From: Erysipelotrichaceae bacterium
GTDB lineage: Bacteria; Bacillota_I; Bacilli_A; Erysipelotrichales; Coprobacillaceae
Assembly: GCA_021201315.1 (NCBI GenBank)
Contig: JAJQFG010000116.1
Coordinates: forward strand, 1-34,210
DNA: 34,210 bases
Direction of reading: 5' to 3'
Both the position numbers and the translations under genes were made by a program. Below are positions 21,302 through 29,991 of the stretch, piece after piece. Below the pieces are notes generated by a model. It was not told the origin of the DNA. It searched no databases and saw only the letters and a list, made by a program, of their open reading frames with translations. Every line of letters starts with the position of its first letter. The stretch's first letter is position 1.

Positions 21302-23014
21302 ATGTTTGATAAAAGATTAATGAAAGAATTATCAGATACTATGCCATATATTATTAAACAAGTTCTATTTCAATGGCTTAGTCTTATTTGTAATATAGTA
21401 TTTACAATGAGTTTATGCATAATGTTTCATCAATTGATACATCATACTTTAACTATGAATCATATTGGAACAACATTAATCATTATATTAATCTCATTGA
21501 TAATAAGAGGCATTTCACTAAAACAACAAAGCAACTATGCCTATCTATCAGCTGCTCAAACAAAACGTACATTACGTATCAAATTATTTGATAAGATTAA
21601 TGAAATAGGTATGCATTATCAAGATTATGTGACTACTAGTGAATTGGTACAATTATCAGTAGAAGGTATTAATCAATTAGAAACTTATGTTTCACTATAT
21701 TTACCACAATTATTTTATAGTGTTTTAGCACCTATAACCTTATTTGTAATCACTTTATTCTTTGATATACGTTGTGCACTCATATTATTAATATTTGTGC
21801 CATTAATACCTATTAGTATTGTTGTTGTACAAAAATTTGCAAAGAAATTATTATCTAAATACTGGACGAGTTATACAACATTAGGTGATGGATTTTTAGA
21901 AAACTTACAAGGTTTAACAACCCTAAAGATTTATAGTAGTGATGCTTATAAGCAACAACAAATGAATATTGAGGCAGAAAACTTTAGAAAAGTTACGATG
22001 CGTGTTTTAATTATGCAACTTAATAGTATTAGTATTATGGATATTGTTGCTTATGGTGGGGCAGCAGTGGGTAGTTTTTGTGCTTTATTAGGTTATTATC
22101 AAGGTAGTATTTCATTAATAGGAACCATGTTTATTATTTTGATGTCTTTTGAGTATTTTATTCCTATGCGTCAATTGGGCAGCTATTTTCATATTGCGAT
22201 GAATGGTATGGCTGCAAGTGAAAAGATTTTTAGAATTATAGATATTGATACAAAGGATCAAGGCAATGAAACTTTAAGTGATCAGGATATGAATATTGAT
22301 ATTCATCATTTAGATTTTTCCTACGATAAAGATAGACAAATACTAAAAGATGTTTCATTATCTATTCATAAAGGATTTACTGGAATTGTTGGTGAAAGTG
22401 GTTCTGGTAAGAGTACATTAGCTAAATTAATCATGGGTTATTATCCTAGCCAACATATCCAAATTCAAAATATTGAAAGAAATCAATTAGATGATACAGA
22501 TTTTATGAAACATTTTGTTTATGTTACTCATGATCCAATGATATTTAAGGGAAATGTAAAAGATAATTTAAATTATTTACAAAAACATACAGATCAAGAA
22601 TTATGGGAAGCTTTAGAAAAGGTAAAATTAGATGGTTATTTTAAAAACCAGGATGGTTTAGATACCATGATATTAGAATCTGGTAGTAATTTAAGTGGTG
22701 GTCAAAAACAGCGATTAAATTTAGCTAGAGCATTATTATATAATGGTGATGTATATATTTTTGATGAAGCTACAAGTAATATAGATGTAGAATCAGAAGA
22801 AGCAATTCTTGATGTCATTCATCAAATCGCTAAAGTAAAGAAAGTTATTCTTATAACCCATCGTTTAAGTAGTGTTACACAATGTGATGAAATATATGTC
22901 TTAGACAAAGGTCAAATCGTTGAAACAGGTAACCATGAAAGTTTAAGAAAACAACATGGCTTATATGATAGCTTGTTTCTTCAACAAGAAGCATTGGAGG
23001 TGTATCAAGCATGA
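21302..23014 (+). CDS. cydD: ABC exporter subunit, CydD-like (membrane plus ATPase)
   Basis: 570-residue half-transporter with about six transmembrane helices (residues 1-300) and a C-terminal ATPase. ATPase motifs: Walker A GESGSGKST, signature LSGGQKQR, Walker B VYIFDEATS, H-loop ITHR, all canonical. The membrane domain carries segments typical of CydD-like proteins (LENLQGLTTLKIY, MDIVAYGGAAVG, FFIPMR-type). CydDC exports cysteine and glutathione and binds haem, which is needed for cytochrome bd assembly in other bacteria. No cydAB genes lie in this window, so the real substrate is open. The stop overlaps the start of the partner gene by 4 nt, so the two form a heterodimer. Confidence 0.82.
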   Translation: MFDKRLMKELSDTMPYIIKQVLFQWLSLICNIVFTMSLCIMFHQLIHHTLTMNHIGTTLIIILISLIIRGISLKQQSNYAYLSAAQTKRTLRIKLFDKINEIGMHYQDYVTTSELVQLSVEGINQLETYVSLYLPQLFYSVLAPITLFVITLFFDIRCALILLIFVPLIPISIVVVQKFAKKLLSKYWTSYTTLGDGFLENLQGLTTLKIYSSDAYKQQQMNIEAENFRKVTMRVLIMQLNSISIMDIVAYGGAAVGSFCALLGYYQGSISLIGTMFIILMSFEYFIPMRQLGSYFHIAMNGMAASEKIFRIIDIDTKDQGNETLSDQDMNIDIHHLDFSYDKDRQILKDVSLSIHKGFTGIVGESGSGKSTLAKLIMGYYPSQHIQIQNIERNQLDDTDFMKHFVYVTHDPMIFKGNVKDNLNYLQKHTDQELWEALEKVKLDGYFKNQDGLDTMILESGSNLSGGQKQRLNLARALLYNGDVYIFDEATSNIDVESEEAILDVIHQIAKVKKVILITHRLSSVTQCDEIYVLDKGQIVETGNHESLRKQHGLYDSLFLQQEALEVYQA

Positions 23015-24648
23015 AATTATCAGGATTTCAAGTAATGCGTAGACTTATTGTATTAGTAAAACCATTGATGCCAATTATGTTTATAGCGATTTTAATGGGG
23101 GTTTTAGGTTTTGTATGTGCTATTGGTATACCAATCATATCAATTCATGCTTTGCTTAATATACAAACCATATCATTAAAATATATATTGATTATTCTTA
23201 TTATATTAGCCTTGCTAAGAGGTATTCTTCATTATATTGAACAAGCTTGTAATCATTATATAGCTTTTAAATTATTAGCAATTATTAGAGATCATGTTTA
23301 TACTGCTTTAAGACGTTTAGCACCTGCTAAATTAGATGGTAAAGATAAAGGTGATTTAATTTCATTGATTACTAATGATATAGAACTCTTAGAAGTCTTT
23401 TATGCTCATACCATATCCCCTTGTATGATTGCAATCATTATGGCTATCATATTATTATCATTATTTTATCGTATGAATGTTATTGCGATGTTTATTGCTT
23501 TAATTGCTTATTTTATCATGGCTATTGTTATACCATATATTGTAAGCTTAAAAGGTTCTACTATAGGACAGAAAAATCGTGATGAAATAGGTCATATGAG
23601 TAGTTTCTTATTAGAAACTTACCGAGGATTAAATACATTATTTCAATATCATATGGGAAATAAAAGAAAAAAAGAAATGATTAAGCTTTCTGATGATATT
23701 GATCATTTATCAAAGAAGATGAAAAACATCGAAGGAAATCAAATGATAGTATCGCAAATATTGATATCTTTATCAGTATGTGTGATGTTTATCGTTATGT
23801 TTATGCTTTATCAAAATGGTGATGCAACGATTTATGAAGTGATAATGTGTAGTGTTTTAATGGCTTCTAGTTTTGGCCCTTTTACAGCTCTATCACAATT
23901 ATCTAATAATTTATTATCAACAATTAGTAGTGGTAGACGTGTGATTGCGATTCTTGATGAAGAAGAACTTATTCATGAAGTGAAAGATCAAGATACAACA
24001 TTATTTAATGATATACAAGTAAACCATGTAGATTTTAAATATGATAGTGAAATGATTTTAAAAGATATTCATATTTCATTACCAAAAGGAAAAACAACAG
24101 GTATTATAGGTAAAAGTGGTAGTGGAAAATCTACGTTGTTAAAGTTACTTATGCGTTTTTATGATCCTACTAGTGGTATGATTTGTATCAATGATACTGA
24201 TTTAAAACAGATTAATACCTCTGATATGCGTGATATGTTTGCCTATGTGACACAGGAAACTGTTTTATTTCATGATAGTATCGAAAATAATTTAAAAATA
24301 GCTAAATTAGATGCAACCCATGAAGAAATCGTTTCAGCTTGTCAAAAAGCAAGTATTCATGATTTCATTATGAGTTTACCAGATGGTTATCAAAGTAATG
24401 TGAGTGAACTTGGGGCATCGCTTTCAGGAGGGGAAAGACAGCGTTTAGGATTAGCGAGAGCTTTTTTATCAGATAAACCTTGTATTTTATTAGATGAACC
24501 AACAAGTAATTTAGATGTTTTAAATGAAGCCATTATTTTACGTTCCTTAGAAGAAGTTAATAAAACAATCATTCTTGTATCACATCGTTCTTCTACGATG
24601 AAAATAGCTGATCAAATTATATCCATGGATCAAGGAAGGATATCTTAA
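23011..24648 (+). CDS. cydC: ABC exporter subunit, CydC-like (membrane plus ATPase)
   Basis: 545-residue partner of the preceding half-transporter: six transmembrane segments (first about 15-65, last about 270-300) and a canonical ATPase with Walker A GKSGSGKST, signature LSGGERQR, Walker B CILLDEPTS and H-loop VSHR. Both subunits have intact catalytic residues, so neither site looks degenerate. Start ATGA overlaps the upstream stop. The last codon and stop lie within the first copy of a 23-bp direct repeat (24646-24691), which marks the boundary to the gene-free region behind. No clear intrinsic terminator follows directly. Confidence 0.82.
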   Translation: MKLSGFQVMRRLIVLVKPLMPIMFIAILMGVLGFVCAIGIPIISIHALLNIQTISLKYILIILIILALLRGILHYIEQACNHYIAFKLLAIIRDHVYTALRRLAPAKLDGKDKGDLISLITNDIELLEVFYAHTISPCMIAIIMAIILLSLFYRMNVIAMFIALIAYFIMAIVIPYIVSLKGSTIGQKNRDEIGHMSSFLLETYRGLNTLFQYHMGNKRKKEMIKLSDDIDHLSKKMKNIEGNQMIVSQILISLSVCVMFIVMFMLYQNGDATIYEVIMCSVLMASSFGPFTALSQLSNNLLSTISSGRRVIAILDEEELIHEVKDQDTTLFNDIQVNHVDFKYDSEMILKDIHISLPKGKTTGIIGKSGSGKSTLLKLLMRFYDPTSGMICINDTDLKQINTSDMRDMFAYVTQETVLFHDSIENNLKIAKLDATHEEIVSACQKASIHDFIMSLPDGYQSNVSELGASLSGGERQRLGLARAFLSDKPCILLDEPTSNLDVLNEAIILRSLEEVNKTIILVSHRSSTMKIADQIISMDQGRIS

Positions 24649-24691
24649 TGTTTTACACAAGCAATCTTTAATGTTTTACACAAGCAATCTT
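24646..24691. repeat. Two perfect tandem copies of a 23-bp unit
   Basis: The unit begins with TAATGTTTTACACAAGC and is present at 24646-24668 and 24669-24691 without mismatch. The first copy starts with the stop codon of the CydC-like gene. The core ACAAGCAATCTTTA also occurs at about 1458-1475, among the Rpn-family relics. Confidence 0.8.
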
Positions 24692-24692
24692 A

Positions 24693-24721
24693 TTGACAAA
24701 TAAATAAAAATATTGTATATT
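24693..24721 (+). promoter_or_regulatory. Consensus promoter in a gene-free stretch
   Basis: Perfect -35 TTGACA (24693-24698), 17-nt spacer, -10 TATATT (24716-24721). No protein gene follows on this strand before 25353, so it should transcribe the candidate small RNA. A second TATAAT lies near 24763-24768. Confidence 0.75.
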
Positions 24722-24727
24722 GAAGTT

Positions 24728-24923
24728 ACTTAAGGAATTAAGTTATACTTAGTTGCATATAATAAGGATGCTAGATATTTAGCATTGAAAAAAGCTAGTG
24801 ATTCCAACTATGATAGGAACTGAAAAAAGAAGTGATTCCGACTTTAACAGGAACTGAAAAAAGAAGTGATTCCGACTTTAACAGGAACTGAAAAAAGAAC
24901 TAGAGAGCACACTCTAGTTCTTT
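24728..24923 (+). ncRNA. Candidate small RNA with three tandem repeat units
   Basis: Predicted transcript of about 195 nt from the promoter at 24693-24721 to the hairpin ending at 24923. It contains three head-to-tail units: 24786-24820 (35 nt, diverged), 24821-24854 and 24855-24888 (34 nt each, identical), and a partial fourth at 24889-24899. Each unit reads TGAAAAAAG, then AGTGATTCC, a 10-nt segment, and GGAAC. AGT-TCC can pair with GGAACT, leaving a small hairpin in each unit, separated by A-rich linkers. A 34-nt period breaks reading frames, and the longest open frame is about 15 codons, so it is unlikely to code for protein. It matches no riboswitch or RNA family that I recognise. Confidence 0.55.
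24786..24899. repeat. 34-35 bp tandem repeat array (3.3 units)
   Basis: Units at 24786-24820, 24821-24854, 24855-24888 and a partial one at 24889-24899. The second and third are identical; the first differs at several positions in the middle (CTAGTGATTCCAACTATGAT). There are no spacers between units, so it is not a CRISPR array. Confidence 0.85.
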
Positions 24924-24925
24924 AT
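24894..24925 (+). terminator. Hairpin terminator of the candidate small RNA
   Basis: AAAGAACTAGAG (24894-24905) pairs perfectly with CTCTAGTTCTTT (24912-24923), loop AGCACA. The T-tract is short (TTTATT), so termination may be partial, but the 12-bp stem is strong. Confidence 0.65.
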
Positions 24926-24935
24926 TGTGAGAAAT

Positions 24936-24960
24936 AAAAAGATGTCGTTTTGACATCTTT
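24936..24960 (-). terminator. Terminator of the cold-shock gene
   Basis: AAAGATGTC (24938-24946) and GACATCTTT (24952-24960) form a 9-bp stem. Read on the minus strand it is followed by TTTTTATTT, and it lies directly after the csp stop. Confidence 0.75.
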
Positions 24961-24967
24961 ATTGGTT

Positions 24968-25174
24968 TTAACCTACAACTGTTACATTTGCAGCTTGTGG
25001 TCCTCTGTCACCTTCAACAACTTCGAATTCAACAATTTGACCTTCTTCTAAAGTTTTGTACCCACTGGCGTTAATTGCGCTAAAGTGAACAAAAATATCT
25101 CTTGTTTCACCTTCAAGTGTGATGAAGCCATAACCTTTATCGGCTTTAAACCATTTTACTTTACCTGTACTCAT
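24968..25174 (-). CDS. csp: Cold-shock protein, CspA family
   Basis: 68-residue single cold-shock domain that binds single-stranded RNA and DNA as an RNA chaperone. RNP1 is [10 protein letters not shown] and RNP2 is [23 protein letters not shown] at the start is diagnostic, and the length is standard. The start has the ribosome binding site GGGGAGGT. The 5' leader of about 80 nt from the promoter at 25265-25293 is long for this genome, as is usual for cold-shock mRNAs whose translation depends on leader folding. Confidence 0.97.
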
Positions 25175-28248: not shown

Positions 28249-29991
28249 ATGGATCAAGTTAAAGAATATATCAATCAAATAGGTATGAGAAATATAGCTA
28301 TTATATTTATTGTTGTAGCAGTTATGATTATTATTTATATTGTACAAAGGGCTATGCGTTTAAGAAAGTATCGTAGTCTTATTGTTGAGTATGAAAATAA
28401 TATGAATGCTATTAAATCACTTCCTTTACAATATCGTTTAGGTAGAGTTCAAAGTATTTCTAAGAATATGAAAGAAATTGTCCCTTTATATGATGAATAT
28501 GTAGAAGAATATGATAGGATTAGTCTTTTTCAAAAGAATGAACTTTCAGTTTTAATGAATGAAGTTGATGAACAACTCTTTTATGGTAAATTAAGAAAAA
28601 TAGCTTCTAAAATGAACCAGCTTGATGATATGTTAAAAACCTATGAAAAAGATTCAAAGACATTACTTGCTAAAATTGAAGAAATAACAGAAATAGAAAA
28701 TGTTCAAAGAGTTGAAATCATTCGAGTTAAAGAAAACTATCGTCGTTTAATTGATCGTTATGAAACAATCCGTTTTCAACTTGAAAGTTATATTCCTCAA
28801 TTAGCTCAATATTTCAATAATATTGATGATTCTTTTGTACAATTAGAAGATCTAATGAATAATCAACGTTTTGATGATGCCAAAGAATTTACAGCAGATA
28901 TTGATAAGCGTGTAACTTGGTTGGATGAACGTATTGATGATTTACCTCATTATGTGGCTTTAGTAAAACAATATATTCCTAAAAAACTGGATGCTTTAAA
29001 TACCATGATGGATGAAATGTCTCAAAACAATTTCGCTTTAAATCAATTAGATGCTTATCAACGCTTAGAAGTAATGAATAATACATTAAAAGAATCTCAA
29101 AGTCATATTAAGCAATTGGAGTTAGATGGTGTGGGTGAAGTTTTACAATCTCTAGTTGAAAGTATTGATGCTTTAATCGATGATTTAGATAATGAACAAA
29201 AAGCCTATGAAGATTTTAAACAAAAATGGAATAAAGCTTATGATACGATTACCAATATTTATGAACAATATAAGCAAGCCCTCAAAGATTATCATCGTAT
29301 TAAAGATTTATATGTTGTAGATGAAGATGAGCTTATTAATATTGAAGAAAAGTATGAAGATTTTGATAAGATATTAAAAGAATCCTATGAATTGGAAGAA
29401 GAAATGAATCAAGGTGAATTTGCTTATTCTAAAATGATTAATAAGGTTGTACAAATGGAAAATAATGCCATTTCACATGAAGATGATTTGAATACTTTCT
29501 TTTCATATCGTGATCAGTTATTCCTTAAGGAACAACGTGCAATTGATGAATTAGAAAATATTAATATTGTTTTATTAGAAATAAAATCAGAAATTAAAAA
29601 TAAACATTTACCAATGATTAATGAATCTTATAAAGATTATATTCAGGATTCTTATGATAAAGCAGCACAAATTCAAGCTTATCGTAATAATCGACCAATT
29701 GAGTTGAGTGAATTATCTAAACGTGTTGATAATGCTAGAGATATTATTTATAAGTTATATGATAATGTTCATAATTTGATTGTAACTGCAGAAATGGTAG
29801 AAGAAGCTATTGTTTTTGGAAATCGTTATCGTTCGACTTTTTTAGAAGTGAATACTGAATTAACAAAAGCAGAGGTTTTGTTTAGAAATGGTGAATATAC
29901 TAAAGCTTTATCTACAGCTGTGGAGATCATAGAAAAAATACAACCTGGTTCTTATGAAGAATTAATTAAGAATTCATCAGTTAAGGCTTAA
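28249..29991 (+). CDS. ezrA: Septation ring formation regulator EzrA
   Basis: 580-residue membrane-anchored protein that restrains FtsZ ring assembly and links it to cell-wall enzymes in Bacillota. One N-terminal transmembrane helix (about residues 14-32, AIIFIVVAVMIIIYIV) is followed by a long spectrin-like coiled-coil region to the C-terminus, with the early segment KSLPLQYRLGRVQ typical of EzrA. Length is normal. GAGGAGGG gives a strong ribosome binding site with a 10-nt spacer. The next two genes, a desulfurase and thiI, follow ezrA in many Bacillota too. Confidence 0.95.
   Translation: MDQVKEYINQIGMRNIAIIFIVVAVMIIIYIVQRAMRLRKYRSLIVEYENNMNAIKSLPLQYRLGRVQSISKNMKEIVPLYDEYVEEYDRISLFQKNELSVLMNEVDEQLFYGKLRKIASKMNQLDDMLKTYEKDSKTLLAKIEEITEIENVQRVEIIRVKENYRRLIDRYETIRFQLESYIPQLAQYFNNIDDSFVQLEDLMNNQRFDDAKEFTADIDKRVTWLDERIDDLPHYVALVKQYIPKKLDALNTMMDEMSQNNFALNQLDAYQRLEVMNNTLKESQSHIKQLELDGVGEVLQSLVESIDALIDDLDNEQKAYEDFKQKWNKAYDTITNIYEQYKQALKDYHRIKDLYVVDEDELINIEEKYEDFDKILKESYELEEEMNQGEFAYSKMINKVVQMENNAISHEDDLNTFFSYRDQLFLKEQRAIDELENINIVLLEIKSEIKNKHLPMINESYKDYIQDSYDKAAQIQAYRNNRPIELSELSKRVDNARDIIYKLYDNVHNLIVTAEMVEEAIVFGNRYRSTFLEVNTELTKAEVLFRNGEYTKALSTAVEIIEKIQPGSYEELIKNSSVKA

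Follow-up and report, generated by a model that had tools for sequence, protein, structure and literature searches.

The window analyzed here, a 34,210-nucleotide stretch from an Erysipelotrichaceae bacterium, carries a short tandem array in a gene-free gap. Its upstream neighbors are a cydDC-like ABC transporter gene pair, of which the cydC-like gene occupies positions 23011-24648 on the forward strand (PF00005, PF00664), and its downstream neighbors are a convergent cold-shock protein gene, csp (24968-25174, reverse strand; PF00313, E 7e-30), and an M29 aminopeptidase gene; the cydC-like gene and csp flank the element and lie outside it. As originally predicted, the gap is faced by a near-consensus promoter on the forward strand (24693-24721), consisting of TTGACA at 24693-24698, a 17-nt spacer and TATATT at 24716-24721, with 11 of the 12 consensus positions matched. 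Promoter-like sites in general are no commoner than in shuffles of the region (5 found, 5.3 expected), but the window has this exact string only once, and similar promoters lie upstream of two homologous arrays, L163 and L155. Folding places a leader hairpin at 24767-24786 on the same strand (GATGCTAGATATTTAGCATT), and the L155 leader has a hairpin of different sequence at the same place (GTGCTACAATGTAGCA).

The array itself spans 24786-24899 and was detected by TRF with a period of 34 nt, 3.3 copies, 92% matches and a score of 184, compared with a best score of 75 among 50 dinucleotide-shuffled windows. The three head-to-tail units that had been proposed are thus real; they are directly contiguous, and units 2 and 3 are identical across the full period. 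A CRISPR array was rejected on these grounds, as no unique spacers are present. The predicted 12-bp terminal stem was likewise found, at 24894-24923 on the forward strand, as a terminator stem-loop (AAAGAACTAGAG-AGCACA-CTCTAGTTCTTT) with homologous terminators in L155, L163 and L174 that carry paired changes on both sides. In complete toxIN loci, a terminator sits between toxI and toxN. No ORF of at least 60 aa overlaps the array on either strand, in agreement with the earlier view that no frame is open. The predicted transcript is about 198 nt long, and the fold of 24725-24925 has a z of -2.9. Since the array is single-copy in its genome, the dispersed genome-wide repeat raised as an objection in the original prediction was ruled out.

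In toxIN loci, which are type III toxin-antitoxin modules of phage defense, the RNase ToxN is bound by ToxI units, each folded as an H-type pseudoknot. The window unit, AAGUGAUUCCGACUUUAACAGGAACUGAAAAAAG, has a stem 1 of AAGU:ACUU, a loop 1 starting with G-A, a stem 2 of UUCC:GGAA and an A-rich tail starting with C-U, and both its layout and its tail are those of the ToxI prototype from Pectobacterium plasmid pECA1039 (AGGUGAUUUGCUACCUUUAAGUGCAGCUAGAAAUUC). The prototype has four-bp stems, a G5/A6 loop, C27/U28 contacts and an A-rich cleavage site (PMC8860590, PMC3475682), ToxN cleaving at A-rich sites (PMC8860590). Known ToxI repeats measure 36 nt in 5.5 copies on pECA1039, 34 nt in 2.9 copies in Bacillus thuringiensis and 35 nt in 2.8 copies in the antiQ of Lactococcus AbiQ (PMC5086642), and the period and copy number of the window array are typical of ToxI tandem repeats of about 34-37 nt. 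Computationally, both short stems form in all three units. The pseudoknot core of unit 1 (24796-24819, forward strand) pairs UAGU:ACUA and UUCC:GGAA between flanking A-rich linkers, unit 2 (24830-24853, forward strand) pairs AAGU:ACUU and UUCC:GGAA, and the core of unit 3 (24864-24887, forward strand) is identical to that of unit 2. All three were placed by repeat coordinates and pseudoknot layout, with a held-out model supporting unit 1 (match at 24789-24862) and unit 2, and with homologues that keep the stem pairs despite changes on both sides supporting unit 3. The linker between units, GAAAAAAG, is A-rich and by sequence suited to ToxN cleavage as a single strand. A single unit could adopt the small bulged hairpin that was originally proposed, but comparison favors the H-type pseudoknot.

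The held-out model, R2, is a covariance model built from 19 ToxN-linked arrays, from which the window was excluded to avoid circularity. In its training set, double changes occur at 9 of the 14 pseudoknot pairs, a number reached in none of 500 shuffles; since related sequences can exceed shuffles, the slid-partner control matters here, and it also favors the true register. Searched against the 34-kb window, R2 gave the array as its sole match (32.3 bits, E 4.5e-6), and against the whole genome it matched only this array and two toxIN arrays on contigs C109 and C83. The window departs from the references in stem 1, where it has an A-U pair at a position that is G-C in 18 of 19 arrays. Because a hand-set pseudoknot score for single units was barely above shuffles for several known arrays, the assessment was based instead on covariation, direct homology and the held-out model. 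A covariance search had been suggested in the original prediction. Rfam, at the gathering threshold and at E values up to 10, returned nothing credible for the window array; however, this null is uninformative, because Rfam release 15 assigns no family to the ToxI prototype locus either, nor to any further ToxI array that was tried (L085 and other ToxN-linked loci). The window array is, judged by its sequence, a set of ToxI-type antitoxin repeats. The RNA is therefore not undescribed in kind, as had been thought, and its partner class, which had been called unknown, is the ToxN/AbiQ RNase, because the units are homologous to ToxI repeats both in the R2 match and in a homologue that precedes an intact toxN. 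A CsrB-like sponge was rejected because each unit has a single GGA, which is on the 3' side of stem 2 and not in a loop; the original prediction had likewise noted no obvious GGA-loop motif of CsrA type. The more general idea of an RNA gene with repeated modules survives: the element is a predicted promoter-driven, terminated and non-coding RNA gene whose modules plausibly bind a protein several times.

Searching the class with R2 gave direct homologues, only four in all from this sub-lineage. Of the complete ones, the closest is L155 (genome G437, in the same class), which has a promoter, a hairpin leader, three units, a terminator, a Shine-Dalgarno-like sequence and an intact 166-aa ToxN; its leader, units and terminator are 77% identical to those of the window over 168 columns (E 9.5e-27). 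L174 (G335) is likewise complete with an intact ToxN (E 3.8e-19 to the window). L163 (G639) has a promoter, two units and a terminator, followed by just the last ~18 toxN codons, about 29 nt past the terminator stem. In the four loci compared, A-U is replaced by G-C, through changes on both sides, in stem 1 of the first and last units; the terminator stem is likewise altered on both sides at several positions with pairing kept. On the strength of this homology to L155, L174 and L163, the window element is best read as the same kind of element with toxN wholly gone.

The space in which toxN would be expected to start (24924-24967) contains neither a Shine-Dalgarno sequence nor toxN or a recognizable remnant of it, as judged by a local ToxN profile and by ORFs, and is partly occupied by the csp terminator at 24938-24960; the profile also found no toxN within 1.3 kb downstream of the array. 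The locus thus has the promoter, antitoxin repeats and Rho-independent terminator of toxIN but is not a complete toxIN system, because no ToxN/AbiQ-family gene lies directly downstream. In those sister genomes in which the region is present (L012, L059), homology to the window ends at 24649-24650 and restarts at 24931-24932, with unrelated sequence between. The element takes up exactly the space that separates the cydC-like gene from csp, and these sisters do not share it. Either an arrival as toxIN or an arrival already without toxin would fit this site, which alone cannot tell the two apart. A perfect 23-bp tandem duplication (TTAATGTTTTACACAAGCAATCT) at 24645-24691, which covers the cydC-like stop codon and stops immediately short of the promoter, is a possible mark of the element's left junction.

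Elsewhere in the same genome, contigs C51, C83 and C109 carry three other ToxN genes (PF13958), and each of these genes follows a separate array of 35-36 nt repeats. The repeats of C109 have a tail, AAUGAAAAAAG, that is similar to the tail of the window unit. The C51 array (L008, 2183-2282 in G000:C51) contains a run of Ns, and its copy number in the assembly is unreliable.

Since the locus lacks toxN, the sisters lack the element at this site and the three resident toxN genes each have their own array, we consider the locus very probably to be an orphan antitoxin gene of type III, with the toxI half of a toxIN locus complete and toxN missing. If transcribed, the RNA would consist of three H-type pseudoknots with A-rich linkers between them. 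Where the system is complete, ToxN cuts linkers of this kind and the freed units keep the toxin inactive. Most probably the element reached its place next to csp and the cydC-like gene in this lineage and not in its sisters, as toxIN or in toxin-less form, and toxN was deleted as far as the terminator. Its likeliest present status is that of a remnant of toxin loss that could still act in trans on a cognate ToxN; by analogy with the toxin-less pseudo-ToxI of phage PhiTE, which neutralizes the ToxN of its host (PMC3475682), the RNA, if expressed, would be expected to neutralize the ToxN of its own lineage. Antitoxin-only remnants are an expected intermediate in this process if, as the logic of toxin-antitoxin systems suggests, the toxin must be lost before the antitoxin. 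Against the orphan reading, no sister locus with toxN at this site is known, and toxin loss there is therefore not seen directly; the small number of homologues in the sub-lineage and the A-U pair in stem 1 also count against it.

An antitoxin-first survey covered the order (315 genomes) and the class (395 genomes); the 1.3 kb downstream of each R2 locus was tested with the local ToxN profile, and toxin-less contexts were read. Two of the 62 loci examined, in G517 and G481, were dropped because the matches lie inside coding genes. ToxN was found downstream of 39 of the 60 credible ToxI loci, a broken, truncated or barely recognizable toxin at 5 (G639, G133, G080, G034 and G212) and none at 16, the window included; these counts depend on the reach and thresholds of R2, chance may account for a few of the single-unit cases, and the toxin-less count includes an array just downstream of a complete toxIN (G030:C82) and one at a contig end (G041:C352). 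Toxin-less arrays of two or more units include L132/L145, L156, L165, L167, L170 and L177, the last of which is followed by same-strand ORFs of no recognized family and may have a toxin of unrecognized type downstream. L144 (572-866; G104:C6:199408-199665) has about eight clean ToxI units and a terminator, with no toxin and a convergent gene behind. Single units with a terminator are also among the toxin-less cases (L099, L122, L137/L146, L098/L152, L140/L148). Since toxin-less and toxin-linked arrays are alike in pseudoknot and promoter scores, the former are not visibly decayed.

This lack of decay bears on the possibility that the array is kept by selection, either neutralizing ToxN from incoming plasmids or phages or buffering a resident ToxN, for which C109 would be the best candidate. 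All units, the promoter and the terminator of the window look intact, L144 has retained its clean units without a toxin, and the toxin-less pseudo-ToxI of PhiTE suppresses ToxN (PMC3475682). However, intactness may merely reflect recent loss, because the element is not common to the sister species, and type III antitoxins act selectively on the cognate toxin (PMC4627078); the G437 ToxN and the C109 toxin share only 43% identity. We regard maintenance by selection as unlikely at this locus; for buffering of a resident ToxN, the similar repeat tail at C109 is to be set against the divergence of the toxins and the selectivity of the antitoxins. It is equally doubtful that toxin-less ToxI genes throughout the order and class form a maintained class of chromosomal RNA antitoxins, an anti-addiction system directed against plasmid- and phage-borne toxIN. 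If they did, repeat number would be free to grow, as to about eight in L144, or to shrink to a single unit with a terminator.

Two further explanations would set aside the loss of a toxin altogether. Repeats are error-prone in a draft genome, as the Ns in the C51 array illustrate, and toxN might be present in the organism but have been dropped between the repeats and csp in the contig. Such an artefact is very unlikely: sister homology restarts right after the element, so that toxN would fit only if an entire gene had been cleanly dropped, toxin-less arrays occur mid-contig in other genomes, and G639 keeps a truncated toxN behind the same element. A promoter, repeats and a terminator without a neighboring toxin might also suggest a free-standing regulatory RNA, such as the protein sponge or base-pairing RNA originally suggested, with no relation to toxin-antitoxin systems, but direct homology to arrays that precede ToxN and the R2 match make this barely credible.

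The window element resembles the ToxI of toxIN in unit length, tandem layout, pseudoknot stems, loop positions, A-rich linkers, promoter, Rho-independent terminator and homology, and differs from it in the missing toxN, in the A-U pair that replaces the G-C pair of stem 1 and in the lineage-specific sequence of its three units. Orphan antitoxins of type II have already been described. Like these and like anti-addiction modules, the window locus is a chromosomal antitoxin without a toxin that possibly protects against an incoming module, but here the antitoxin would be RNA and not protein. The PhiTE pseudo-ToxI (PMC3475682) shares with it ToxI-like repeats without a toxin gene and a repeat number able to expand; it is, however, phage-borne and selected as counter-defense, whereas the window copy lies on a chromosome and has a promoter, leader and terminator of its own, from a toxIN locus. 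ToxI itself is known; the toxin-less chromosomal form is undescribed in the literature searched, from which most subscription journals and the main 2012 survey are excepted. Type III surveys, as described in a review (PMC5086642), start from the toxin protein, and toxin-less antitoxin arrays are for that reason invisible to them. With 21 of 60 loci in the order and class lacking a toxin or having a damaged or barely recognizable one, it can now be asked whether the antitoxin routinely outlasts the toxin as such modules decay, and whether leftover RNA antitoxins shield their hosts from toxIN-carrying elements in the manner of phage pseudo-ToxI.

Neither unit-pattern nor ToxN-based searches of viral contigs yielded any loci, and nucleotide searches of plasmids and phages gave no match. 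Nucleotide matches in relatives were AT-rich promoter-like sequences and one site inside a gene (L003), and were judged to be chance. The unit pattern, with three mismatches allowed, gave no further array in the 315 order genomes and one single-unit look-alike with a terminator (L052/L153), which is possible but near chance. Near-identical single ToxI-like units (GCGGTGTACCCTACC..AAGTGGGA), each with a terminator immediately after and no toxin, occur at unrelated loci in three genera (L137/L146 in G229:C98, L140/L148 in G095:C22 and L098/L152 in G050:C3). The single unit of L122 (1037-1094; G030:C112:2736), also without toxin, has the same terminator as a complete toxIN at 28341 on the same contig and looks like a duplicated or collapsed copy. 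Additional degenerate ToxI-like units lie 3' of a complete toxIN at L121 (2916-3164; G030:C82), and G104, the genome of L144, has a complete toxIN with a different repeat on contig C1. ToxN-like domains were also seen within open frames of about 570-620 codons (G030:C150, G036:C153, G023:C33, G103:C15, G286:C71, G152:C339 and G019:C38), several of them behind TCGGAG-type arrays, and these frames are possibly an extended form of the toxin.
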